A program made the translations under genes and the position numbers. From Bacteroidaceae bacterium (lineage in GTDB: Bacteria; Bacteroidota; Bacteroidia; Bacteroidales; Bacteroidaceae): 33,357 nucleotides of DNA. The first letter of the stretch is position 1; the number at the start of each line of letters is the position of its first letter. This document shows, one piece after another, positions 1-12,804 of this stretch. Under the pieces are notes generated by a model that worked only from the letters and a program-made list of their open reading frames with translations, did not search any database and was not told the DNA's origin. Location: NCBI GenBank assembly GCA_021443415.1, contig JABUTZ010000010.1, positions 94,140-127,496 on the forward strand, in the 5' to 3' direction.

Positions 1-1060
1 CGCGGCTGATGTATTGGTAGGTGTATCCGCCCGTGGCCTTCGAGAGGTTGTCATAGTGGTCGCCGTTGGTCATGTAGGTCCACATGCGACGGCGGTCGGT
101 GCTGTCGTAGAGTTTCTGCAAGGCGATGGTCGGGCCCTTGCCGGCTCCCCATGTCTGGTCGGCGATGACCGAGCTGCGGCTCCATGCGCAGTTGTGCGCG
201 TTGCCGAAGCCGTAGCCCTGTACGGCGCACTGGATGGCGAAGATCGACTCGGGTCCGTTGTTGCTCTCCACGTCGAACAGTGTGCCGTAGTCGATGTCGG
301 TCAGCCACGTGCGCGACTCGATGACGGCGAGTGCGTCGGCGGCGGCGCGGGCGTAGAGGTCGGCGCGGTCATATCCGTAGTCGGTGTGCGACGCCATGGT
401 GAGCAGCAGCTTGGCGCGGAAGGCGCGGGCTGTCGTCTTGGTGCATCGGTAGGCGTCGGCGTCGGTGTCGGGCAGGTGCCGCTCAGCGAAGTCCAGGTCG
501 TTGAGGGCGAACTGGTAGATGCTCTTCTGCGTGTTGCGGGGCAGGTCGATGTCGCCGTCGGCGATGTTCTGCGTGTTGTTGTGCACGATGGGGGCGTCGT
601 GCCACACCTCGGCAATGATATAGTAGCAGTATGCGCGCACGCAGCGGGCCTCGGCGATGGCCTTGTTCTTGTCCTCCTCGCTGACACCCTGGCACTTGCC
701 GGGCATGTCATTGATGACGGAGTTGGCGAACGCGATGACGTTGTAGAGTCCCTTCCATCCCTCGTTGATGTAGGGGTTGATGGAGGTGTAGCTGCCGAAG
801 AACCACTGTCCCTCGTCGCTGTATGTATAGAACATGTCGCCGTTGAGCATGTCCAGCTTCCACTGGAAGTTCATGTGGAAGTCACGCCATGTGCGCGACG
901 CATAGAGCGTGAGCGTGTTGCTGCGCACCATCGCCGTGTTGGTGAAGAAGTTGTCCTGCACCAGTTTGTCCTGCGGCTCGATGGTGAGGAAGTCGTTGCA
1001 CGAGGCGGCAGAGACGGCAAGCATTAGCGCAAGGGCTAATTTTGATATTGTCTTTTTCAT
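1..1060 (-). CDS. SusD/RagB-family outer-membrane nutrient-binding lipoprotein (3' end truncated by window edge)
   Basis: Minus-strand reading from cat at 1058-1060: MKKTISKLALALMLAVSAASCNDFLTIEPQDKLVQDNFFTN... has a lipoprotein signal with Cys followed by the SusD-like 'DFLTxEPQDxL' start. It lies immediately downstream of a SusC gene. No stop before the left edge. Confidence 0.93.
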   Translation of the reverse strand, partial: MKKTISKLALALMLAVSAASCNDFLTIEPQDKLVQDNFFTNTAMVRSNTLTLYASRTWRDFHMNFQWKLDMLNGDMFYTYSDEGQWFFGSYTSINPYINEGWKGLYNVIAFANSVINDMPGKCQGVSEEDKNKAIAEARCVRAYCYYIIAEVWHDAPIVHNNTQNIADGDIDLPRNTQKSIYQFALNDLDFAERHLPDTDADAYRCTKTTARAFRAKLLLTMASHTDYGYDRADLYARAAADALAVIESRTWLTDIDYGTLFDVESNNGPESIFAIQCAVQGYGFGNAHNCAWSRSSVIADQTWGAGKGPTIALQKLYDSTDRRRMWTYMTNGDHYDNLSKATGGYTYQYISR

Positions 1061-1078: not shown

Positions 1079-4000
1079 TTAGAAACCGAGATTGAGTCCG
1101 AGCGTGAACATGCGGGGCGACGGATAGCGTCCGCGGTCGATGTTCTGGAGCAATGCGCTCTGGTTGTAGGCGCCGATCTCGGGGTCGTAGCCGGTGTAGC
1201 TCGTGAAGGTATAGACATTCTGCACGTTGAAGTACAGCTTGGCGCGTGTCAGTCCCGCCTTTTTCGCCCATTTCTGCGGCAGGTTGTATGCCAGCGAGAT
1301 GTTCTGTATGCGCAGGTAGGTGCCGTCCTCTATCCATCGGTCGCTCATGCGGTTGTTGCCGTTGCCGTCGAGGTTCGAGAAGCGCGGCAGTCCGTTGCTG
1401 CCGTCGAGCAGGTAGACGTTGGAGATGTCGGTGCGGCTGCCGTTGGGGTCACGGAGTCCGATCTGTGCGCGGTTGAGCACGCGCTGGTCCTGGTTGTCCC
1501 AGATGGAGGTGAGGCCCTCGGTCTTGTAGCGCGCCCAGTTGAGTATGTCGCCGCCGACCTGTCCCGTGATGCCGATGTTGAGCTCCCATTCCCTCCAGGT
1601 GAACGTGTTGGTCCATCCGTAGGTGAGCGTTGGGTTGGGGTCGCCGATGACCACCTGGTCGGCGTCGTTGATCACGCCGTCGCCGTTCTGGTCGACGAAC
1701 TTGATGTCGCCCACCCAGGCTCCCGTCTCTCGGTCGATCTTGTTGGCGTAGGGTGTCGAGCCGCCTGTCTGCGTGGCGTGGCTGAGGATGTCAGCCTCGT
1801 TGGCGAAGAGTCCCTCGGTCTGGTAGCCGTAGAAGACGCCCATGGGTTGTCCGACCTTGAACATGGTGGCCGTCTGGAAGGGAGCCCACCAGTCGACGGC
1901 GCCGTAGAGCACCTGCGAGTCGTCGTTGAGGGCCACCACCTTGTTCTTGTTGTGCGAGAGGGTGACGGAGCTCAGCCAGGTGAAGTCCTTGGTGACCACG
2001 GGGCGTGCGGTGATCTGCAGGTCGACACCCATGTTCTCCGTCTTGCCTATGTTGGCGTAGGGGTTGAGGATGGTCTGATAGTCGTTGGAGGCTATCTGCG
2101 AGGGGGTGAACACCTGCATTAGCAGGTCCTTCGTCTGCTTCTTGTAGAAGTCGACGGTGATCTCCAGGCGGTTGTTGAAAGCCGCGAAGTCAAGTCCGAT
2201 GTTGAACTGCTCCGACGACTCCCACTTGAGCTTGGGGTTGGACAGGTTCTGGGGGAAGTAGGCTGTGCCGTGGGGTGTGAGCATGGACATCATGGCCGAC
2301 GCATAGCGGTAGGTGTCGATGTTCGAGTTGCCCACCTGGCCGTAGCCGAGGCGCAGCTTGAGGTTGTCGAGCCATCTGGCGTTCTCCATCCATTTCTCCT
2401 GCGAGATGCGCCAGGCGGCCGCCGCCGAGGGGAAGACGCCCCACTTGTTCGACGGGCCGAACTTTGATGAGCCGTCGGCACGTATGGTTGCGGTGACAAG
2501 ATAGCGGTTGTCGTAGCCATAGTTGACACGGCCGAAGAACGAGGTGTTGGACGCGGCGTCGCTCCAGCCCGTGTTGCTCACGAACTCGCCGTCCTCGGTC
2601 ATGACGTGGATGATGTCGGTGGTGAAGTTCTTCTTGATGAGCTGAGTGCCCTCCCACGACGACTTAGAAGCCTCGAAGCCGACCATGGCGGTGAGGTTGT
2701 GCTTGTCGGCGAAGGTCTGGTTGTAGGTGAGGTAGTCCTTCTGCATCCAGAACCACGAGTGCTCCTCGCGCTGCATCATCTGGTTGATGTCGTTGGAGAC
2801 GACGCCGAACTCGTAGCGCGGGATGTATGACTTGTTCTGGTTCTGCGAGCCGTCGAAGGCGAACTCGGCGCGGAAGGTCAGGTACTTGAGGAACTTGGCC
2901 TCGGCGTAGAAGTCGCCCATGATGCGCTGGCGCAGGAGCGTGTTGTTGGTCTGCAGGGCGAGGGCGACGGGGTTCCATGTCGAAGAGCCGTTGACCGTCG
3001 AGGGACCCGCCCAGTTGCCGTCGAAGTCGCGCACGGGCACCACGGGCATCATGGTCATCGCCTGCATGATGACACCGTCCGAACCATCGTTGCGCGTGAT
3101 GCGCTCGTTGGTGCGGGTGTAGGCGAGCGAGGCTCCCACCTTGAGCCACTTGGTGAAGTTGTTGTCGATGTTGAGGCGCGTATTGAAGCGGTTGAAGTCA
3201 GACCCGATGATGATACCCTCCTGGTTCATGTATCCCGCCGATGCGGCGAATGTTGTCTTGTCGTTGCCTCCGTTGACTCCCACCTGGTGGCTGTGCATGA
3301 CCGCCGTGCGGAAAATCTGGTCCTGCCAGTCGGTGCCTTTGCCGAGGAGGCTCACGTCTGAGTATGTCTTGTCGAACATGGTCTCGCTGATGATGCCGTC
3401 GTTGAAGAGCGACTGCTGGTACTGCGCGTACTGGCGCAGGTCCATCATTTCGAGGCGCTTGGCTGTCTTCTGCCAGGCGACATATCCGTCGTATGTGATG
3501 TTGGTGTGTCCGGCGCTGCCGCGGCGGGTGGTGACGATCACCACGCCGTTGGCGCCCGCGGCTCCGTAGATGGCGCACGCTGAGGCGTCCTTGAGCACGT
3601 CGATGCTCACGATGTCGCTCGGTGCGATGGCGGCGAGGGGGTTGACCGTTGTCTGTCCGTTGGTGCCTCCCGCCCAGTCGAAACCGCCGATCGACCCTGC
3701 GGCTCCCGACATGGGCACGCCGTCGATGACGTAGAGCGGCTCGTTGGAACTGTTGAGCGACGAGGCGCCGCGGATGCGGATCGAGGTGGCGCCGCCGGGG
3801 GCTCCCGAGTTCTGCGTCACCTGGACGCCGGCCACCTTGCCCTGGAGCATCTGGTCGGCGTTGGTCACGATGGTCTGCTTCATCTGGGCCTCGGAGAGCG
3901 ATGCCACCGAACCTGTGAGGTCGCTCTTCTTCTGGGTGCCGTAGCCCACGACCACCGTCTCTGCGAGGGCGATCGCCGACTCAGCCATCGTCACCTGGAG

Positions 4001-4288
4001 CTTGGTGCGTCCGTTGAGGGGAATCTCCTGGGTGTCCATGCCCACGTAGGAGAACACCAGTACGGATTTGGGGCTTTTCACCTCGAGGGTGAACTGACCA
4101 TCGATGTTGGTGGTGCAGCCGAGACTTGTCCCTTTCTCCATCACGGTGACGCCTATCAGGGTCTCACCCGCAGAGTCGAGGACAGTGCCGCTGACGGTCA
4201 CCTGCGCACGCATGCCTATTGATAGCATGGCAAGCAGCAGTACGACGAGCGGCTTAGCATTGAAGATTGTCTTGCATTTCATATGCAC
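1079..4288 (-). CDS. SusC/RagA-family TonB-dependent outer-membrane receptor
   Basis: 1069 aa: signal peptide, N-terminal carboxypeptidase-like domain (VSGTVLDSAGETLIGVTVMEKGTSLGCTTNIDGQFTL), plug domain (VVVGYGTQKKSDLTGSVASL...SIRIRGASSLNSSNEPLYVIDGVP) and C-terminal beta-barrel ending PSPRMFTLGLNLGF. Confidence 0.97.
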   Translation of the reverse strand: MHMKCKTIFNAKPLVVLLLAMLSIGMRAQVTVSGTVLDSAGETLIGVTVMEKGTSLGCTTNIDGQFTLEVKSPKSVLVFSYVGMDTQEIPLNGRTKLQVTMAESAIALAETVVVGYGTQKKSDLTGSVASLSEAQMKQTIVTNADQMLQGKVAGVQVTQNSGAPGGATSIRIRGASSLNSSNEPLYVIDGVPMSGAAGSIGGFDWAGGTNGQTTVNPLAAIAPSDIVSIDVLKDASACAIYGAAGANGVVIVTTRRGSAGHTNITYDGYVAWQKTAKRLEMMDLRQYAQYQQSLFNDGIISETMFDKTYSDVSLLGKGTDWQDQIFRTAVMHSHQVGVNGGNDKTTFAASAGYMNQEGIIIGSDFNRFNTRLNIDNNFTKWLKVGASLAYTRTNERITRNDGSDGVIMQAMTMMPVVPVRDFDGNWAGPSTVNGSSTWNPVALALQTNNTLLRQRIMGDFYAEAKFLKYLTFRAEFAFDGSQNQNKSYIPRYEFGVVSNDINQMMQREEHSWFWMQKDYLTYNQTFADKHNLTAMVGFEASKSSWEGTQLIKKNFTTDIIHVMTEDGEFVSNTGWSDAASNTSFFGRVNYGYDNRYLVTATIRADGSSKFGPSNKWGVFPSAAAAWRISQEKWMENARWLDNLKLRLGYGQVGNSNIDTYRYASAMMSMLTPHGTAYFPQNLSNPKLKWESSEQFNIGLDFAAFNNRLEITVDFYKKQTKDLLMQVFTPSQIASNDYQTILNPYANIGKTENMGVDLQITARPVVTKDFTWLSSVTLSHNKNKVVALNDDSQVLYGAVDWWAPFQTATMFKVGQPMGVFYGYQTEGLFANEADILSHATQTGGSTPYANKIDRETGAWVGDIKFVDQNGDGVINDADQVVIGDPNPTLTYGWTNTFTWREWELNIGITGQVGGDILNWARYKTEGLTSIWDNQDQRVLNRAQIGLRDPNGSRTDISNVYLLDGSNGLPRFSNLDGNGNNRMSDRWIEDGTYLRIQNISLAYNLPQKWAKKAGLTRAKLYFNVQNVYTFTSYTGYDPEIGAYNQSALLQNIDRGRYPSPRMFTLGLNLGF

Positions 4289-4364: not shown

Positions 4365-4442
4365 CAAAGATATTCCCAAAACCGTCAATTATCCAAAAAA
4401 GACGCAGAAAACGACTAAAATGCGCTAAAAAAGTACCATTGC
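4365..4442 (-). promoter_or_regulatory. Promoter of the SusC/SusD operon: -7 TATCTTTG plus upstream GCAATGGTACTTTTTTAGCG box
   Basis: Minus-strand box at 4442-4423. TATCTTTG runs 4372-4365. The 'TAC' of the box begins at 4435, 63 bp upstream of the -7 start. The same layout occurs at 5900-5977 and 9863-9940. Confidence 0.7.
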
Positions 4443-4465
4443 GGGTGCCGACGATGCAAAAGCGG

Positions 4466-5344
4466 TCAGACGATGATGCGCGTCTTCAGGTAGTTTTCCC
4501 TGAATGTCTTGGGCGTGCATCCCTTCTTCGCCTTGAAGATGCGGTTGAAGCTCGTGATGTTGGTGAAGCCGCACTGGTAGCATATCTCCGACACCGCCAT
4601 CGAGGTGTCGACGAGCTGGCGCGAGGCGTGTCCGAGACGTATGTCGATGATGTATTCGGAGAGCGTGCGCCCCGTGCGCTGCTTGAAGAAGCGGCTGAAT
4701 GCCGTCGGTGTCATGCCCGCAATCCTGGCGAGATGGTCGAGGGTGAGTTCCTGGTCGTAGCGCTTGTTGATCTCCTCCTCGACGCGGTTGACGCGGCGCG
4801 ACTCGGTGGACATGCTTCCGCGCGAGAACGAGGTGGTGGCGAGCTGATGGCTGTCGGTCGAGAGCGACAGCTGGTACAGGAGGTCGAGGAAGCCGATGAT
4901 GCTGGAGAAGTCGGACTTGAGCGAGTTGGCGAGGCTGTCGAGCCGCGAATAGACACCCATGATCGTGCGCATGCCGAAAGCCACGCCCGTCTGCGCCTTC
5001 CTGAGCAGCTCGGCGATGGACCTCATCTGGTTCTTGGCGAGGAACTCGGGCGGCAGGAGGTCGGGGCGGAACTGTATGGTGATCTCGCGCTTGTCCGTCT
5101 TGTCGCAGTAGTGCTGGTCCCAGCAATGCTCTATGCCCGAGCCTATCAGCGCCAGGTCGTACTCGCCCAGCTCCTCGATTGAGTCGCCGACGATGCGCCG
5201 GGCTCCCGTGCAGTTGCTCACGAAGTTGAGCTCTATCTCGTCGTGGCGGTGGAGCGGGTAGTCAAACTCGGTCTTGTTGCGGTCCACGAGGTAGAAGCAG
5301 TCCCGGTCGGACAGAGGGGTTATCTCGGAGAGGATATGGCTCAT
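4466..5344 (-). CDS. AraC-family transcriptional regulator (N-terminal cupin-like sensor, C-terminal AraC HTH)
   Basis: Start MSHILSEITPLSDRDCFYLVDRNKTEFDYPLHRHDEIELNFV (cupin-like); C-terminus LTLDHLARIAGMTPTAFSRFFKQRTGRTLSEYIIDIRLGHASRQLVDTSMAVSEICYQCGFTNITSFNRIFKAKKGCTPKTFREN (AraC HTH signature). Confidence 0.95.
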   Translation of the reverse strand: MSHILSEITPLSDRDCFYLVDRNKTEFDYPLHRHDEIELNFVSNCTGARRIVGDSIEELGEYDLALIGSGIEHCWDQHYCDKTDKREITIQFRPDLLPPEFLAKNQMRSIAELLRKAQTGVAFGMRTIMGVYSRLDSLANSLKSDFSSIIGFLDLLYQLSLSTDSHQLATTSFSRGSMSTESRRVNRVEEEINKRYDQELTLDHLARIAGMTPTAFSRFFKQRTGRTLSEYIIDIRLGHASRQLVDTSMAVSEICYQCGFTNITSFNRIFKAKKGCTPKTFRENYLKTRIIV

Positions 5345-5460
5345 AATGCGCAGGCTTTGGGGGTGGTCGTTGGTGTGAATTCTGTGCAAATATAAGCTTT
5401 TAATTTGATATGGAGCGCATTTTGCCAATTATTTTTCGCCCCATCACCGATTTAGCCACC

Positions 5461-5870
5461 CTATTTCGCCTTCAGGTATATCACCCTGCTGTGATATGCC
5501 TCCGCCTTGTATTCGGGGGAGACGGTGTCGGGCAAGTCCAGTCCGTTGTTCATCAGATACTCGCCGCTGAACGCCTTGCCCTCCTGCGGAATGGGGCGAC
5601 TGTCGTCGAGGCGGTTGAGTTCCTCGCCCACATACATCCTGCCGGGGTCGAGTCCGTGCATGGCTATTCGCGGCACGCGGTGCTGATAGAGGTACTCGGT
5701 GCGCCACAGGTAGAACACCGCCTCGTCCTTGGTCGGCGAGACGTACATCAACGACGCCACGCCATCAGGCAGTTTGGCCCTGTCCGCCGTCCAGTCGCCG
5801 AGCGACGATGAGTCATTGCGCCGACAGACAAAGACAACATGCACAAAGGCATGAGCAGATACTTTTTCAT
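5461..5870 (-). pseudogene. Remnant of a secreted alpha-galactosidase-like enzyme (GH36-like C-terminal domain) with a frameshifted signal peptide
   Basis: ATG at 5870 encodes a signal peptide (MKKYLLMPLCMLSLSVGAM...) in one frame. Another frame carries DWTADRAKLPDGVASLMYVSPTKDEAVFYLWRTEYLYQHRVPRIAMHGLDPGRMYVGEELNRLDDSRPIPQEGKAFSGEYLMNNGLDLPD...YHSRVIYLKAK, which resembles the C-terminal beta domain of GH36 enzymes. No catalytic domain lies between them. Confidence 0.68.
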
Positions 5871-5899
5871 TTCCATGGTACGGTGAGGTTTATCGACCG

Positions 5900-5977
5900 C
5901 AAAGGTAACTCATCATCTCCAAAAATCCAAACAATGTGAGCAAATCATATCACGATAGGGCAAAAAAGTATCATCGC
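5900..5977 (-). promoter_or_regulatory. Promoter of the GH36-like remnant: -7 TACCTTTG plus GCGATGATACTTTTTTGCCC box
   Basis: Minus-strand TACCTTTG at 5907-5900; box 5977-5958; 'TAC' at 5970 is 63 bp upstream of the -7 start; TTTG-N20-TACCTTTG core. Confidence 0.68.
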
Positions 5978-6013
5978 ACGGCGCGCAATGGCGTTCGTCG
6001 CCATGGAAAAGCG

Positions 6014-6060
6014 CATGCTTGCAGAAGACCATGACCATAGTCCGGTCTTCTGCAAGCATG
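6014..6060 (-). terminator. Strong inverted repeat downstream of the 6084-9674 operon, candidate terminator
   Basis: CATGCTTGCAGAAGACC (6014-6030) and its exact reverse complement GGTCTTCTGCAAGCATG (6044-6060), 13-nt loop, just past the stop at 6084. Confidence 0.6.
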
Positions 6061-6083
6061 ATGAATGGTGTCAGGCGAGTCGG

Positions 6084-8189
6084 TCAGCGGTTGACGTACT
6101 TGCGTCCGTCCCTGATGACGATGCCGGGATGGTTGGCGCCTACCGCCTGTCCCATGAGGTTGTACGCGGCGCCGTCGGTCTGGGCCGTGTGGCGAATGGC
6201 AGAGACGCCGGTCTTGATGATGCGGTCCTCGAAGAACTTGAAGAAGACGTCCCACCAGTCGTTGCCCGTGGCGTGCATGCACTCGGGCTGATAGACGATC
6301 TGCTTCTCGGTGGTGAGGAGGTTGTTGTAGGGAGCCATGTTGGTGCGCGGAGGGCATACGTTGTCCTGCAGACCAATCGACGTGATGACGGGGCAGGAGA
6401 TGAGCGTGGCCAGGTTCTTGGTGTCGAAATACGAGAGGAATCCGTACATCTCCTCGTCGCTCAGTCCCAGCTCAGCCTGCTTGGCGAAGGCTACGCTCGC
6501 GGGCCATGCGCCCACCTGGAAGTAGTTGGGGAAGTCGCCCATGAACTGTATTGAGGGAGCGATGGCGCGGCACTTGCCGGTGAGCGCGGCGGCGGCGATG
6601 GTGAACGCACCGCCCTGGCTGCCGCCCTGCACGAAGATGTTCTCCTGGTCTACGGCCTCGCGCGAGCATACGAAGTCGATGGCACGCACGCAGTCCATGT
6701 ATGCGCCGCGGTAGTAATACTTGTCCTTGTCGCCGAAATTGTAGGCGAAATAGTCGCCATAGACGTCGTCCTCGGGGCTGTGGTGCTTGTTGTTGAGATA
6801 CTGTCCGCGGTTGAAGAAGATGAGGTCGCACCATCCGTCGTGGTCGTCGCCGCCCATGCACCAGGGTTCCACGCCCTCGATGCGGTTGTCGTAGCCCTGG
6901 AAGTGGACGCAGCAGGGATACTTGCCCTCGGCTACTGGCTCGATGTAGTAGGCGCGCACGGTCACGGGCACACCGTCGCCGTTGTCGATGCTCTTCATCT
7001 CGACGAGATAGACCTTGCGCTTCTCGGTGCTCTTGGCGGCTATCTCGGTCAGCTTGCAGTCCATGGCCACGGCGGCGAGTTGCGTCTTGGCGGTGTTCCA
7101 GAACTGCTCGAAGTCGGCCTTTGCGTCGGGAGCGGCGACGATGCCCTCGGGGTCGTAGCCGATGTTGAACGAGCGGACGAGCTCGTCGTTGACAGTCACG
7201 GTCACGACGTAGAAGCCCGCGGCGGTGATGTCGGCGAGAGCCACCGTCTCGGAGGCGGCGGCCGATGCGGCGATGCTGACAGACTTGGTGTATGTCTTCA
7301 CGGCCTCGCGCTTGTCGGTCTCCACGACGACCTCGATATTGGCGGTGGCGGCGGCGGAGCCGCTGTTGGTGACGTTGACGGTCAGCGCAGGAGTGGCGCC
7401 CTTGGCCCATACCCAGTCCTCGTCGGCGATGGAGATGGTGGTGTCAAACGAAGGCAGCAACGAGGGGTCGAACACCTCGATGCAGGTCAGCGTGTAGCCA
7501 ACGCCCGTGACCACCATTCCGCCCGTCTGCAGCTTGTCGAGCATGGCGGCGGTGATGGTGAACTCATAGTATTTGCCGCTGAGGGCTACGTAGTCCGTGG
7601 CGTCGGGCATGTCCTGCCAGTCGCCGGTGCTGATGTGGCCCTGCGCTCCGCTCTCGAGTCCGGTGAACTTGATGCGCAACAACTCACCTACCTTGGCATT
7701 GGTGAAGCTTGACTTGTCGATGGTGGCATAGGCACCATTGTTCCAGTCGATGGCTGTCTCGCCGATCCATACGGCATGCTCGTAGCCTGCGCCGCCGGCT
7801 CCCTTGACCAGCTCGACCGAAGTCAGCGTGTAGCCGGCACCGCACACGATCATGCCACCCTCCCGGAGCTCGCCGAGCATGGCGGCTGTGATGCCGTATT
7901 TCGTCGATGACGAGGCGGCTGTCAGCATGGCGTTGCCTGCGCAGGCCAGCTTCGACCAGTTGCCGTTGTTGAGTTGCACCTGCGGCCACTGGCACTCAGC
8001 CGTCACGGTCACGTCCTTTACGTTGAGCACGATGAAGTCGCCCACCTCGGCGGCGGCGAACTTGTCCTGTGCGATAATCTCGAACTCGCCCCACGAGGGA
8101 GAGAACTTCGTCTCGCCCGACCAGATGGTCTCACCCATCATTGTGGTGGCAAGGCATAGAAATAAGGTTAGGAAAACATTGCGTTTCAT
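6084..8189 (-). CDS. Secreted modular esterase: two N-terminal beta-sandwich-like modules plus acetyl xylan esterase (AXE1/CE7-like) domain plus C-terminal tail
   Basis: From MKRNVFLTLFLCLATTMMGETIWSGE. Duplicated modules; alpha/beta-hydrolase GGSQGG nucleophile motif in YYYRGAYMDCVRAIDFVCSREAVDQENIFVQGGSQGGAF; GLQDNVCPPRTN; CMHATG. C-terminal AYNLMGQAVGANHPGIVIRDGRKYVNR. Confidence 0.87.
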   Translation of the reverse strand: MKRNVFLTLFLCLATTMMGETIWSGETKFSPSWGEFEIIAQDKFAAAEVGDFIVLNVKDVTVTAECQWPQVQLNNGNWSKLACAGNAMLTAASSSTKYGITAAMLGELREGGMIVCGAGYTLTSVELVKGAGGAGYEHAVWIGETAIDWNNGAYATIDKSSFTNAKVGELLRIKFTGLESGAQGHISTGDWQDMPDATDYVALSGKYYEFTITAAMLDKLQTGGMVVTGVGYTLTCIEVFDPSLLPSFDTTISIADEDWVWAKGATPALTVNVTNSGSAAATANIEVVVETDKREAVKTYTKSVSIAASAAASETVALADITAAGFYVVTVTVNDELVRSFNIGYDPEGIVAAPDAKADFEQFWNTAKTQLAAVAMDCKLTEIAAKSTEKRKVYLVEMKSIDNGDGVPVTVRAYYIEPVAEGKYPCCVHFQGYDNRIEGVEPWCMGGDDHDGWCDLIFFNRGQYLNNKHHSPEDDVYGDYFAYNFGDKDKYYYRGAYMDCVRAIDFVCSREAVDQENIFVQGGSQGGAFTIAAAALTGKCRAIAPSIQFMGDFPNYFQVGAWPASVAFAKQAELGLSDEEMYGFLSYFDTKNLATLISCPVITSIGLQDNVCPPRTNMAPYNNLLTTEKQIVYQPECMHATGNDWWDVFFKFFEDRIIKTGVSAIRHTAQTDGAAYNLMGQAVGANHPGIVIRDGRKYVNR

Positions 8190-8247
8190 GTGTGTGTATA
8201 TAAATAATGTGTTGTTAATACCCGAAAATCCTTGGGAGCATATTTGA

Positions 8248-8385
8248 TTACAGGAACTCCTCCTCGTCGTCGATCTCATCGTCGTAGTACATATCGATGA
8301 CGATGTCGGACGGACTCGTTTGGAGCATCTGCTCCGCCTCGACGGCATAGACGTCGAGAGTCGGCTGCATGTATTCTTTTTTCAT
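8248..8385 (-). CDS. 45-aa acidic-tailed small protein of unknown function
   Basis: MKKEYMQPTLDVYAVEAEQMLQTSPSDIVIDMYYDDEIDDEEEFL; compactly placed between two genes on the same strand (15 nt after 8400, 58 nt before 8189). Confidence 0.6.
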   Translation of the reverse strand: MKKEYMQPTLDVYAVEAEQMLQTSPSDIVIDMYYDDEIDDEEEFL

Positions 8386-8399
8386 GGCTGGCGGACGAT

Positions 8400-9674
8400 T
8401 TACTTGTTGATGAATTTCCTGCCGTTCGCGATGACCAGTCCCCTGTGGCTGGCGCCCACGCGCTCGCCGCCGATGCCATACATCGCAGCTGCGTTCTGCC
8501 TGCCGGCCGCATTGACGGCGTCGATGGCTGTGGTCGTGCCGTCGGCGAGAGTGATGGTCAGCTGGGCCGCCACCTCGGAGATGCCTGCCGAGTAATAAGC
8601 CTTGCGCGAGGGTATGGCGGTGCCGTCCTTGATCTTGGCGAAGACGGGCTTGCCGCTTGCCGTCGTGAAGGCATAGTCGTTGGCTCCTGCCGTTGCACCC
8701 CTCACGACACCGATGAGTGTGTTCGTGCCGAGGGCGGCAGGCGCGTCGCTTGTGGCAAGGAACGTGTATGTCTGGCCTGCAGTGCCGCTGACAATCACGC
8801 CCTCGCCGGCGGGAATGACGCTGCACGAAGCCACCTTCGTAGCCTTCACGTTGGTACCCTCGGGAGAGCCGAGCGTATAGACAGACACACCCTCGGGCAC
8901 CGCCGCATTGAAGGGCAGGCAGAGAGTGGCGAGACCAGCCTCCGAGATGGCGACGTTGGCATAGATGTCGATGCTCGCGAGCGTGTAGCCGATGCCCGAC
9001 ACGATCATGCCTTTGTCCTTCATGGCCGCCAGCATGTCGGCGGTGATGGTGAACTCATAGCAGTCGCCGGCGATGGACACATATTCGGTTCCAGGCATCA
9101 GATTCCAGTCGCTCTTCAGTATGCCTCCCTGCGCTCCTCCCTGGACATCCTTGCAGTTGAGGCGAATCACGTCGCCCGCCTTGGCGCATGCGAAGCAAGA
9201 GGCGTCGATCGTCGCCCACTTGCTCACACCCGCGCTCCAGTCGATCGGGCTTTCGCCGATCCAGACGGCATTGCCCAGTTCGGCGGCCGAGGTGCCGGCA
9301 TTGATGTCGACGGCGGTGAGCGTATAGCCGGCGCCCGACAGTATCAGTCCGCCGTTCTTCAGCTCATGTAGCATCAGCGAGGTGAGCACATACTCGACAC
9401 TGGTGGTCGTGGCACTGAGGAGCGTGCTGCCGGCACCGAGGAGCAACGTCCAGCCGCTGTTGTTCAGCTGGATCTGCGGCCAGCCTTCCATAGCCACATC
9501 CTTTACCGTGAACACGAGGCGGTCGCCGACCTCGGCGGCGGCAAACCCCTCCTTGGCGATAGGTTCGAAATCGCCCCATGACGTAGAGAAGCTCTTCTCT
9601 CCCGTCCAGATTGTCTCTGCGCAGACCGTGGTGGCAAGCGAGAGGAACAAGGTTAAAAACAGATTGCGTTTCAT
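8400..9674 (-). CDS. Secreted non-catalytic protein with two beta-sandwich-like modules, paralogous to the N-terminus of the 6084-8189 protein
   Basis: MKRNLFLTLFLSLATTVCAETIWTGEKSFSTSWGDFEPIAKEGFAAAEVGDRLVFTVKDV closely matches the N-terminus of the downstream CE7 protein. C-terminal MYGIGGERVGASHRGLVIANGRKFINK tail. Confidence 0.8.
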   Translation of the reverse strand: MKRNLFLTLFLSLATTVCAETIWTGEKSFSTSWGDFEPIAKEGFAAAEVGDRLVFTVKDVAMEGWPQIQLNNSGWTLLLGAGSTLLSATTTSVEYVLTSLMLHELKNGGLILSGAGYTLTAVDINAGTSAAELGNAVWIGESPIDWSAGVSKWATIDASCFACAKAGDVIRLNCKDVQGGAQGGILKSDWNLMPGTEYVSIAGDCYEFTITADMLAAMKDKGMIVSGIGYTLASIDIYANVAISEAGLATLCLPFNAAVPEGVSVYTLGSPEGTNVKATKVASCSVIPAGEGVIVSGTAGQTYTFLATSDAPAALGTNTLIGVVRGATAGANDYAFTTASGKPVFAKIKDGTAIPSRKAYYSAGISEVAAQLTITLADGTTTAIDAVNAAGRQNAAAMYGIGGERVGASHRGLVIANGRKFINK

Positions 9675-9706
9675 TTGTTTTACAGTTAGTTTACGTTTTG
9701 ATGGTG

Positions 9707-9779
9707 CAAAAATATGCAGTGTCTGCGAAACAAAAAAATAAACGGACGTTTCTGCAAACAATCTGCTAAAATTGTATCA
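9707..9779 (-). promoter_or_regulatory. Putative promoter of the 9674-6084 operon: -7 TATTTTTG plus weaker GATACAATTTTAGC box
   Basis: Minus-strand TATTTTTG at 9714-9707; GATACAATTTTAGC box with 'TAC' at 9776, 62 bp upstream of the -7; 12/14 match to the stronger boxes. Confidence 0.45.
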
Positions 9780-9780
9780 A

Positions 9781-9817
9781 TTTGGGGTTTGGGGTTTGGG
9801 GTTATTGGGTTTAAGGG
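9781..9817 (+). repeat. G-rich (TTTGGGG)3 tract with G-quadruplex potential
   Basis: TTTGGGGTTTGGGGTTTGGGGTTATTGGGTTTAAGGG: three perfect 7-bp units followed by two GGG runs. Confidence 0.85.
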
Positions 9818-9862
9818 TTAGTATACCCGTAGTGAATGGCTATTATGTCCATGCACGAGCGC

Positions 9863-9940
9863 GCGATGGTACTTTTTTAGCCAATCATGACACATAAGTG
9901 CGGTTGCATTTGGAAGATGCGCATATAATGACTACCTTTG
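9863..9940 (+). promoter_or_regulatory. Promoter of the 9970-12804 esterase operon: GCGATGGTACTTTTTTAGCC box plus -7 TACCTTTG
   Basis: Box 9863-9882; TACCTTTG 9933-9940; 'TAC' at 9870 is 63 bp upstream of the -7 start; TTTG-N20-TACCTTTG core. Confidence 0.7.
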
Positions 9941-9969: not shown

Positions 9970-11457
9970 ATGAAAAGATTTCTGCTCCCAATCGTCCTCA
10001 TGGCGGTGGCGACGAATGCCCTCGCCCTCGAACTGCCCGAGATCATCGGCTCGGACATGATGCTCCAGCAACAGACCGAGGCAAGGCTGTGGGGCTGGGC
10101 GAGCGCCGGCTCGCAGGTATGCGTCGCCACGTCGTGGGACAACGCCGTACATACGGCCACCGCCGACGCGAGGAGCGGTCGCTGGGAGGTGCGTGTGCGC
10201 ACACCAAAGGCATCGTACGACAGCCACTCCATCACCGTCACGGGCGACGGCGAGACGCGACGGATAGGGAATGTCCTCGTCGGCGAGGTGTGGTTCTGCT
10301 CCGGACAGTCGAACATGGAGATGCCCTTGGGCGGGTTCTGGAACTGCCCCGTCGAGGGGTCGAACGAGGCGATTGCCACAGCGGGCAAGTACCGCAGGGC
10401 AATCCGTATGGCCACGATAGCCAGGACGGCGGCGGCGACACCCGCCGACCGCGTGCGGGGCCGGTGGGAGACGTGCGAGCCGCAGCATGCCCAGCACTTC
10501 TCTGCCGTGGGATATTTCTTCGCACGCACGCTGACCGACCTGCTCGACGTGCCCGTGGGCATCATCAACTGCTCGTGGGGAGGCAGCGCCGTCGAGGGGT
10601 GGATGCCCAAGGAGATCCTCGAGACCTATCCCGACGGACTCACTCCGATGGACGACACCGAGTACCACCGCAAGATGGTGATGTACAACGGCATGCTCCA
10701 CCCTCTCGCCGGCTATACGGTCAAGGGATTTCTATGGAACCAGGGCGAGACCAACGTGGGGCGCGAGCAGGAGTATTTCGAGCGCTTCCAGACGATGGTG
10801 CGCCTGTGGCGGAAGCTGTGGGACCAGCCCGCCGACCGCCTGCCCATCTACACCGTCGAACTCCCGGGCTACAGCTACGGCGACCGGAACGGAGATGCCG
10901 CCGCCCGCTTCCGCGAGGTGCAGCACAGGATCGCCCACACGCTCGAGCACTGCGGCTGTGTCTCGACGAGCGACCTCGTCTATGACTATGAGGTGGAGCA
11001 GATCCACGCCACGAAGAAGCGCGAGATCGGCCAGCGACTGGCGTATATGGCCGCCACGCGCGACTATGGCATGAGCGGCTTCTGGGCTGAGAATCCCGAG
11101 TTCGAGCGCATGTGCGTCGTCGAGGCGAACGCCGGCGACAGGAAGGTGATTGCGGGCAGCTCCGTGGCAGACAATGCGAACCATCGGGGCAAGGTGGTGG
11201 AGATGTACTTCACCAACTGCCGCGACGGCTTCGACCGCATGCAGGACATCGAGGGCTTCGAGGCGGCCGGCGACGACGGCGTGTTCCACCCCGCCGTGGT
11301 CTGGGCGACCAGCAACGGCCAGAGTCCGCTCCTGCGCCTCGTCTGCCCCGCAGTGGCCGAGGTCAAGAGTGTGCGCTACTGCTTCAAGAACTTCGTCGTG
11401 GGCAGGCTCCACAACTCGCGCCAACAGCCCATCGTGCCTTTCCGAACAGACAAATAA
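9970..11457 (+). CDS. Sialate O-acetylesterase-like SGNH carbohydrate esterase
   Basis: Signal peptide MKRFLLPIVLMAVATNALA, then LELPEIIGSDMMLQQQTEARLWGWASAGSQV...VGEVWFCSGQSNMEMPLGGF (catalytic GQSNM motif)...WNQGETNV. Confidence 0.9.
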   Translation: MKRFLLPIVLMAVATNALALELPEIIGSDMMLQQQTEARLWGWASAGSQVCVATSWDNAVHTATADARSGRWEVRVRTPKASYDSHSITVTGDGETRRIGNVLVGEVWFCSGQSNMEMPLGGFWNCPVEGSNEAIATAGKYRRAIRMATIARTAAATPADRVRGRWETCEPQHAQHFSAVGYFFARTLTDLLDVPVGIINCSWGGSAVEGWMPKEILETYPDGLTPMDDTEYHRKMVMYNGMLHPLAGYTVKGFLWNQGETNVGREQEYFERFQTMVRLWRKLWDQPADRLPIYTVELPGYSYGDRNGDAAARFREVQHRIAHTLEHCGCVSTSDLVYDYEVEQIHATKKREIGQRLAYMAATRDYGMSGFWAENPEFERMCVVEANAGDRKVIAGSSVADNANHRGKVVEMYFTNCRDGFDRMQDIEGFEAAGDDGVFHPAVVWATSNGQSPLLRLVCPAVAEVKSVRYCFKNFVVGRLHNSRQQPIVPFRTDK

Positions 11458-11472
11458 AAATCCAACAACCGC

Positions 11473-12804
11473 ATGAAACGCATTTTTTCCTCCGTCCTTC
11501 TCGCCGCAGGCGTCAGTCTTGCCGCGGCGCAGGTGCAAGTGAGTGTTCATCCCGACAACCAATGGGTGTGGCATGCGCCCGAGACTCCCGTGGTGCGGAT
11601 AGTCGCCAAGGACGCCGCGCTGAAAGCCGTGTCGGCAGAAATAACGCTCGTCGTCACCACCGACACACAGACTCCCGTGTGCGAACTGGCGCAGAGTGTG
11701 CGCATCGCCGCCGGCGACAGTGCGGTGCTGACGTTCAAGCCGTCGGTCACCGTGCCGGGCATCTACAAGTGCCGTGTGATGGCCGACGGAGCCGACGTCC
11801 TTGACTTCCCCTTCCAGCAATATGCAGGCACGGCGAAGGCGAGCCACTTCAACATCGCCTTCGAGCCCGAGAACATCGTGTCGCTGCCCGACCACCAGCC
11901 CGACTTCGAGGCTTTCTGGAACGAGGCGCGCCGCGAACTCGCCCAGGTGGAACCCCACTACGAGATGACGGAGCTGAAGGAGAAGAGTTCGCGCTTCAAG
12001 CGTTTCTATCTCGTACGCATGCTCTCCCTCGGCGGCGACACCATCCAAGCCTATCTCACCATTCCCACCAAGGCGAGCAAGCCCCACCGGTCGTCCTATC
12101 TCGGCGAGCAGGCGCAGGGCAAGCTGTATCCCGTCCATATCGTCTATATGGGCTACGACAGCGGTGTGTGGGACTTGGACACGGGCGACAACGGCTGGAT
12201 CCAACTCCTGGTGAGCGTGCGCGGACAGGCTCTCAACAAGCCCACTAACAAGTACGGCGACTGGATTCGCCACGGGCTGCAGAGTCCGCAGACTTACTAC
12301 TACCGCGGGGCGTACATGGACTGCGTGAGGGCGATCGACTTCGTGTGCACCCTTCCCGAGGCGGACAAGAGCCGCATCTACGCCGAGGGTGGCAGCCAGG
12401 GCGGGGCGTTCACCACCGCCGCGGCGGCTCTCGACCATCGTCTTGCCGCCGTCGCCCCCTACATCACGTTCATGAGCGACTTCCCCGACTACTTCCGGAT
12501 CGTGGACTGGCCCGCGCGTCCCATCTTCGAGCAGCAGCACGCACTGGGGCTGAGCGACGGGGAGATGTACCGCACGATGTCCTATTTCGACATCAAGAAC
12601 CTGGCACGATGGGTCGAGTGCCCCGTCTTCCTTGGCATCGGACTCCAGGACCCCACCTGTCCGCCCCACACCAACCTCTCGGGCTACAACCTGATGAATG
12701 TCGCCAAGCGACTGACCGTCTATCCCCGCCACGGCCACCACGTCGACTACAGCCACTGGAACGCGGCCGTCATCGACTGGTTTGACCACTACAGGAGGGA
12801 ATAG
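11473..12804 (+). CDS. Acetyl xylan esterase-like (AXE1/CE7-like) secreted alpha/beta hydrolase
   Basis: Signal peptide MKRIFSSVLLAAGVSLAAAQ; FEAFWNEARRELAQ; YYYRGAYMDCVRAIDFVCTLPEADKSRIYAEGGSQGGAFTTAAAAL; GLQDPTCPPHTN; YPRHGHHVDYSHW. Starts 15 nt after the preceding stop. Confidence 0.9.
   Translation: MKRIFSSVLLAAGVSLAAAQVQVSVHPDNQWVWHAPETPVVRIVAKDAALKAVSAEITLVVTTDTQTPVCELAQSVRIAAGDSAVLTFKPSVTVPGIYKCRVMADGADVLDFPFQQYAGTAKASHFNIAFEPENIVSLPDHQPDFEAFWNEARRELAQVEPHYEMTELKEKSSRFKRFYLVRMLSLGGDTIQAYLTIPTKASKPHRSSYLGEQAQGKLYPVHIVYMGYDSGVWDLDTGDNGWIQLLVSVRGQALNKPTNKYGDWIRHGLQSPQTYYYRGAYMDCVRAIDFVCTLPEADKSRIYAEGGSQGGAFTTAAAALDHRLAAVAPYITFMSDFPDYFRIVDWPARPIFEQQHALGLSDGEMYRTMSYFDIKNLARWVECPVFLGIGLQDPTCPPHTNLSGYNLMNVAKRLTVYPRHGHHVDYSHWNAAVIDWFDHYRRE

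Follow-up and report, generated by a model that had tools for sequence, protein, structure and literature searches.

The locus and its genes

The window, by which we mean the whole stretch of 33,357 nt that was analysed, comes from Bacteroidaceae bacterium GCA_021443415.1 (contig JABUTZ010000010.1, positions 94,140-127,496, forward strand), an assembly of 2.86 Mb that is 86% complete. It carries a SusC/SusD pair, an AraC-family regulator, the remnant of a GH36 alpha-galactosidase and two esterase units (Table 1). The GH36 remnant is made of a signal peptide and a C-terminal domain that are mutually out of frame. Just outside the window (G000:C1:87587-89746), downstream of SusC and SusD and on the same strand, lie two GH26 genes, which are the only GH26 genes of the assembly. 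Homologous loci contain GH26/GH5 beta-mannanases, and also GH27 and AXE1 genes. Judged by these sequences, the substrate of the locus is best read as beta-mannan, probably an acetylated galacto(gluco)mannan.

The C-terminal domain of the regulator is recognised by the Pfam models HTH_18 (E 1e-23) and HTH_AraC (E 2e-15), matches the solved DNA-binding domains of AraC, SoxS and RamA, and is conserved across the homologs that we aligned. The N-terminal part has no Pfam match; its predicted model is a beta-barrel that matches the sensor domains of RhaR and AraC, and four of its residues (H32, H34, E38 and H73) are invariant in the homolog alignment.

Table 1. Genes and putative regulatory elements of the locus, in window coordinates
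Feature	Position	Strand	Remarks
SusD-like protein	2..1060	-	continues beyond window
SusC-like TonB-dependent transporter, first gene of P1 unit	1079..4282	-	TIGR04056, 1.9e-285
P1 -7 element TATCTTTG	4365..4372	-	63 bp from box TAC
Operator box P1 GCAATGGTACTTTTTTAGCG	4423..4442	-	24 bp past araC stop; faces SusC
AraC-family regulator, 292 aa, cupin-like sensor and two helix-turn-helix motifs	4466..5344	-	proposed binder
GH36 alpha-galactosidase remnant	5461..5876	-	PF16874, 1.7e-17
P2 -7 element TACCTTTG	5900..5907	-	63 bp from box TAC
P2 second half-site TGATAT	5947..5952	-	21 bp from first half-site
Operator box P2 GCGATGATACTTTTTTGCCC	5958..5977	-	faces GH36 remnant
AXE1-type esterase, second gene of P4 unit	6084..8189	-	PF05448, 3.9e-48
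Secreted protein of no known family, first gene of P4 unit	8400..9674	-	no Pfam/NCBIfam match
P4 -7 element TATTTTTG	9707..9714	-	62 bp from box TAC
Fourth operator box P4 TGATACAATTTTAGCA	9764..9779	-	faces second esterase unit
Operator box P3 GCGATGGTACTTTTTTAGCC	9863..9882	+	faces SASA/AXE1 operon
P3 second half-site TGACAC	9888..9893	+	21 bp from first half-site
P3 -7 element TACCTTTG	9933..9940	+	63 bp from box TAC
SASA-type carbohydrate esterase, first gene of P3 unit	9970..11457	+	PF03629, 2.6e-19
AXE1-type esterase, second gene of P3 unit	11473..12804	+	PF05448, 6.8e-49

Four boxes, confined to the locus

A preliminary description of this DNA had pointed out three 20-bp boxes (P1 to P3), each with a TAC placed 63 bp from a TAnnTTTG -7 element. 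All three are present at the positions and on the strands that it gave, and the distance measures exactly 63 bp at each of them. Its count of three was too low, however: a fourth site, P4, had been overlooked, which brings the total to four. P4 (TTGATACAATTTTAGCA, minus strand from 9779) is a weaker copy and precedes the 9674-8400 / 8189-6084 unit. As read from the sequence, P1 to P3 each have a -33-like TTTG 20-21 bp before the -7 element. A distance of 63 bp, that is 6 x 10.5, is compatible with helical phasing, but the values found at P4 (62), in L073 (60) and in the reversed sites described below (21 or 22) indicate that the spacing is not rigid to the base.

With up to three mismatches allowed, GCRATGRTACTTTTTTRSCS has exactly three matches in the window (P1 to P3), when 0.01 are expected from shuffled sequences. 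In the whole 2.86-Mb assembly, RATGRTACTTTTTT again finds these three and no others, and the relaxed 15-mer TGRYACWWTTTTRNC finds four, P1 to P4, all inside 5.4 kb of the window; the box is therefore not scattered over the assembly. The GH53 promoter (15850, plus strand) was said to lack the box, and our scans agree; the pdxK promoter was covered through the window-wide box scan only. At the promoter of araC itself (-7 element at 5394), no box was found at either the forward or the reversed geometry, and autoregulation through the box was rejected on this ground.

The putative operator is longer than the 20-bp box: it is a direct repeat of the unit TGRYAC with a 21-bp pitch, of which the box forms the better-conserved half. 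The repeat, which had no part in the search pattern, is plainly visible in 26 reversed sites from relatives. Of the four window sites, two show it, P2 and P3; at P1 and P4 the second half-site is weak, and over the eight forward sites it does not reach significance.

Conservation in relatives

Conservation at orthologous loci was found in three relatives, where the same box stands directly after araC and before SusC; in L079 and L232 the distance is exactly 63 bp, and in the third relative the -7 element is degenerate. Exact conservation of the window box is the wrong test, since a search for exact ATGRTACTTTTTT in 100 relatives returned mostly unrelated chance matches at other spacings. The forward gapped pattern, applied to 139 genomes of the same genus, also gave mostly matches with no AraC homolog nearby. 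On its own this pattern is therefore unspecific, and the specificity comes from the reversed one.

The reversed pattern describes a related box that faces the other way and stands 21-22 bp ahead of TAnnTTTG, in the place of the -33 element. It has 37 matches in the 139 genomes, 32 of which lie 10-142 bp from a homolog of the window AraC. The pattern was built on some of the genomes, and the remaining ones served as an independent check: there, 24 of 28 reversed boxes are near an araC homolog, with 0.03 expected. Among diverged homologs outside the genus, the box, searched as a 12-mer, occurs within 300 bp of araC in 8 of 45 loci (0.2 by shuffles), and boxes of a similar kind adjoin araC homologs in Tannerella and Chitinophaga.

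The distal (forward) and proximal (reversed) boxes are thus opposite in orientation, and the two arrangements, of which the forward one has few examples, are found in different AraC clades. No box can be recognised next to araC in a large clade of GH5-linked homologs. Sites resembling TGACACTATTTTGTCA at 64-66 bp (L158, L165 and L174) were set aside as probably belonging to another factor, given their quasi-palindromic look and their position away from this AraC family.

A putative operator of the adjacent AraC

The proposal that the box is the AraC operator and defines a small regulon is supported by the comparison of sequences, through the linkage to araC homologs, the conservation, and the restriction of matches to the locus. 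We consider it highly probable that the adjacent AraC has the box as the high-affinity half of its operator, and that this protein is a substrate-induced activator of the beta-mannan locus. In line with this, a 21-bp repeat form has been predicted for the sites of AraC-type domains in Bacteroides hybrid two-component systems (PMC3878776), and we count its match with the repeat found here in favour of an AraC operator. The conserved DNA-binding domain and the GH26 and other mannan-related genes of this and homologous loci speak for the same reading. Against it count the weak second half-site at P1 and P4, the GH5-linked clade in which araC has no box beside it, the many forward matches far from any araC in other genomes, and the lack of the box at the promoter of araC itself.

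Starting from the sites, their spacing, the repeat in relatives, the araC linkage and the locus content, a mechanism can be proposed, in which binding, activation and the nature of the inducer are what we infer. Each AraC protomer would read about 16 bp, its two helix-turn-helix motifs entering successive major grooves and contacting TGRYAC and RSC on either side of a T-tract. A dimer would bind two of these sites on the same face of the DNA, as a direct repeat with a 21-bp step. Counted from the TA of the -7 element in the window, the two sites of the pair span roughly 66-51 and 45-30 bp upstream, ahead of a -33 TTTG that is intact, and from this position above the -33 AraC may recruit RNA polymerase. 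P1 would then switch on SusC/SusD/GH26, P2 the former GH36 gene, P3 the SASA/AXE1 operon and P4 the second esterase unit. As inducer, the cupin domain would sense a sugar derived from mannan.

Alternative explanations

The box could be the operator of this AraC, while the protein acts chiefly by repression, or activates but represses by looping when the inducer is lacking. E. coli AraC without inducer represses by looping between distant sites, and repression is known for some AraC relatives. The P3 and P4 operators share a divergent intergenic region, at a distance of about 85 bp from each other, and the araC -7 element of one GH5-linked clade coincides in part with a box-like sequence. However, the window boxes stand upstream of the -33 and leave the core promoter free, and the reversed box of relatives replaces the -33 element, which is the usual position of an activator. 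We therefore hold this scenario to be unlikely.

Somewhat less probable still is that the box is bound by a regulator encoded elsewhere, for instance a hybrid two-component system, the nearness of araC being incidental. Operators of such systems share the 21-bp direct-repeat form (PMC3878776), and the galactomannan locus of B. ovatus is under a hybrid two-component regulator (PMC6556568). Against this stand the closeness of the reversed box to araC homologs in the genus and its enrichment beside araC outside it; moreover, no hybrid regulator was seen among the window genes or in the 16 kb to their left.

Chance similarity, or a recent duplication of the upstream sequences that plays no part in regulation, is hardly credible: P1 to P4 are close together and local copying is conceivable, but their surroundings are unlike apart from the box, the -33 and the -7, the number expected by chance is far too low, and the box is conserved at orthologous promoters in other species.

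Significance

Our best reading of the sequences is thus a one-component AraC activator with a local regulon of four operators, putatively devoted to acetylated galacto(gluco)mannan. Bacteroidota have many AraC-type regulators of glycan loci. The operators identified in a comparative study belonged mostly to hybrid two-component and SusR-like systems (PMC3878776), and we found no described operator for an AraC of this kind, in a search of the open-access literature alone, which is no proof of novelty.

A wider reading, to which we give even chances, is that a widespread uncharacterised clade of one-component AraC activators controls Bacteroidota beta-mannan loci by the 21-bp direct repeat, placed in either of two fixed arrangements: a distal one, some 63 bp from the -7 element in one orientation, and a proximal one, ending 21-22 bp before it in the other. 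If true, this would amount to a marbox-like orientation switch on the Bacteroidota -7/-33 promoter. A predicted operator can here be paired with its putative regulator, with four target units, with a probable substrate and with two geometries of promoter; the arrangement is found across the genus (139 genomes sampled), and traces of it occur in Tannerella and Chitinophaga. It may give a rule for sequence-based prediction of beta-mannan regulons, and a compact system for studying activator-polymerase contacts at promoters of the -7/-33 type.

Comparison with known systems

The AraC/XylS activators E. coli AraC, RhaS/RhaR and MelR resemble the window AraC in their cupin-like sensor and C-terminal double helix-turn-helix, and in their direct-repeat operator, of 21-bp pitch and upstream of the core promoter. 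Here, in contrast, the operator sequence is different and is set on a Bacteroidota -7/-33 promoter, and the inducer is presumed to be a mannan sugar.

Operators of Bacteroides hybrid two-component systems, which regulate SusC/D loci, are also direct repeats, at an average distance of 21 bp; the HTCS_Man motifs have 16-bp sites with a 5-bp spacer, and these systems respond to alpha-mannans (PMC3878776). The direct-repeat form is thus common to both, whereas the window AraC, of 292 aa, is a one-component protein without sensor kinase or receiver domain.

SusC/D, GH26 and alpha-galactosidase are features that the window locus has in common with two known beta-mannan loci, that of Muricauda (PMC9860051) and BoManPUL of B. 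ovatus (PMC6556568). BoManPUL differs in its hybrid two-component regulator. In Muricauda, the locus includes FG28_RS02325, an AraC-type regulator that is expressed and for which the sections of PMC9860051 consulted describe no operator.

Finally, the class I and II marboxes of MarA/SoxS/Rob (PMC12052159) are opposite in orientation when distal and when overlapping the core promoter, which the 63-bp and 21-22-bp boxes here recall, although forward examples are few. Marboxes are single sites for monomers, however, whereas the present operator is a repeat, and both marbox classes serve one protein, whereas the two arrangements found here belong to different AraC clades.

Candidate operator boxes in the window

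The three boxes of the preliminary description, with their strands and their exact 63-bp spacing to a TAnnTTTG -7 element, are all as described; as a set they were incomplete, for a fourth copy exists. Boxes at fixed spacing are thus confirmed and extended to four sites (P1 to P4, see table). In a window scan, the 20-mer consensus with at most 3 mismatches matched P1, P2 and P3 only (0.01 expected). A genome-wide scan, which had been proposed as a check, gave the same three sites for the 14-mer RATGRTACTTTTTT in the 2.86-Mb assembly, while a relaxed 15-mer, TGRYACWWTTTTRNC, had four matches in the whole assembly, all in the window (4438-9867). The P4 unit ends with a second AXE1 esterase gene, and its box means that all four transcription units around araC, the AraC-family regulator gene, carry one, except araC itself. 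As the assembly is 86% complete, more sites could sit in its missing parts. Exactly in the interval that separates the divergent P4 and P3 operators sits a G-rich tract, which could in principle form a G-quadruplex.

Positions of the boxes and neighboring features in the window
Feature	Position	Strand	Remark
P1 box	4423-4442	-	faces SusC
P2 box	5958-5977	-	faces GH36 remnant
P2 second half-site	5952-5947	-	TGATAT, plain 21-bp repeat
P3 box	9863-9882	+	faces SASA/AXE1 operon
P3 second half-site	9888-9893	+	TGACAC, plain 21-bp repeat
P4 box	start 9779	-	62 bp from -7 element TATTTTTG at 9714
Unit faced by P4	9674-8400 / 8189-6084		second esterase unit
G-rich tract TTTGGGGTTTGGGGTTTGGGGTTATTGGGTTTAAGGG	9782-9825	+	
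GH36 remnant	5461-5876	-	

Conservation among AraC homologs

Sequence comparison gives good support to the boxes as predicted operators of the window AraC. Identity to the closest homologs found reaches 58%. Phylogenetic footprinting, also proposed earlier, shows that two relatives (L079 and L232) keep the box a few bases past the araC stop and exactly 63 bp before the SusC -7 element, as at P1; a third (L080) retains the box, but its -7 element is TACCTTAG. A second clade has the box in reverse orientation, with its end 21 or 22 bp ahead of TAnnTTTG. A reversed pattern built from a few loci, with gaps of 19-23 allowed, had 37 matches in 139 same-genus genomes (control, 0); even so, the gap was 21 in 29 and 22 in 8. 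An AraC homolog lies 10-142 bp away in 32 of the 37. Two more are second sites in loci already counted, and for the other three a protein search found no homolog on the contig, although tblastn revealed a partial araC in two (G118 and G123). Among the 28 matches in genomes not used for deriving the pattern, 24 have a homolog within 1.5 kb (0.03 expected). The homolog tree places the forward boxes in a single large clade and the reversed boxes in a different one; a large GH5-linked clade has no recognizable box beside araC.

In L066 and L235, the second reversed operator precedes a gene for a secreted protein and is 3.4-3.5 kb away from araC; multi-promoter local regulons are therefore not unique to the window. 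In GH5-linked loci (L086-L092), a box-like AYAAAAAAGTGTAA upstream of araC extends into the gene's own -7 element and could be an autorepression site; its conservation alone proves little, because these loci are closely related. In L158, L165 and L174, TGACACTATTTTGTCA-like sites are spaced 64-66 bp from TAnnTTTG; none is beside a member of this AraC family, and one is upstream of a Crp-like regulator gene. They possibly belong to another factor with a similar site.

Outside the genus, we examined 45 araC homologs (Tannerella, Proteiniphilum, Chitinophaga, Sphingobacterium and other Bacteroidales). TGRYACWWTTTT occurs within 300 bp of araC in 8 loci, which include at least one close-species pair (two Chitinophaga loci), so that independent events are somewhat fewer. 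The mean from dinucleotide shuffling was 0.2 (maximum 2); among 288 other blocks on the same contigs, just 2 contain it.

Proposed operator form and regulator

Aligning 26 non-redundant reversed sites uncovered a second, TGRCAC-like hexamer, absent from the search pattern, at a distance of exactly 21 bp. The mean match there is 4.96 of 6 positions, and no other offset tested exceeds 3.4. This repeat does not stand out across the eight forward sites, nor is a second half-site plainly seen at 21 bp in P1 and P4.

The window AraC is a one-component protein with C-terminal HTH_18 and HTH_AraC domains and a cupin-like N-terminus, in which H32, H34, E38 and H73 are invariant. In a confident structure model (mean pLDDT 87), the sensor part matches the RhaR and AraC sensor domains, and the DNA-binding part those of MarA, SoxS and RamA. 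The DNA-binding domain is strongly conserved across homologs, in agreement with the likeness of their boxes.

Counted upstream from the TA of the -7 element, with -7 and -33 in their standard positions (PMC7366714), the window operators span about 66-51 and 45-30 bp, and a -33 TTTG remains intact downstream of them. Reversed boxes of relatives span about 37-22 bp, and so occupy the place of the -33 element. The window AraC is probably an activator rather than a repressor, and may sense a mannan sugar.

Locus content

Homolog loci encode GH26, GH5, GH27 alpha-galactosidase, AXE1 esterases (one fused to GH26) and an N-acylglucosamine-2-epimerase-like protein, a set expected for beta-mannan. The window holds SusC/SusD, a GH36 remnant and AXE1/SASA esterases, and the assembly's only GH26 genes lie just left of it, after SusD on the same strand. 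From these enzyme families, we infer an acetylated galacto- or glucomannan locus. The GH36 remnant, the sole GH36 C-terminal domain in the assembly, keeps only that domain and the signal peptide, in different frames; upstream, the P2 operator and promoter look intact, as if the promoter had outlived its gene.

Comparison with known systems

A Muricauda beta-mannan locus (PMC9860051) also has an AraC-type regulator, whereas the B. ovatus galactomannan locus (PMC6556568) uses a hybrid two-component regulator, unlike the one-component AraC of the window. Class I and class II marboxes (PMC12052159) likewise have opposite orientations at distal and proximal positions, a parallel that is suggestive only, because the two arrangements belong here to different AraC clades. 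The direct-repeat form is shared with Bacteroides hybrid two-component regulators with AraC-type domains, whose predicted operators are direct repeats in which 5 bp separate the 16-bp sites (PMC3878776).
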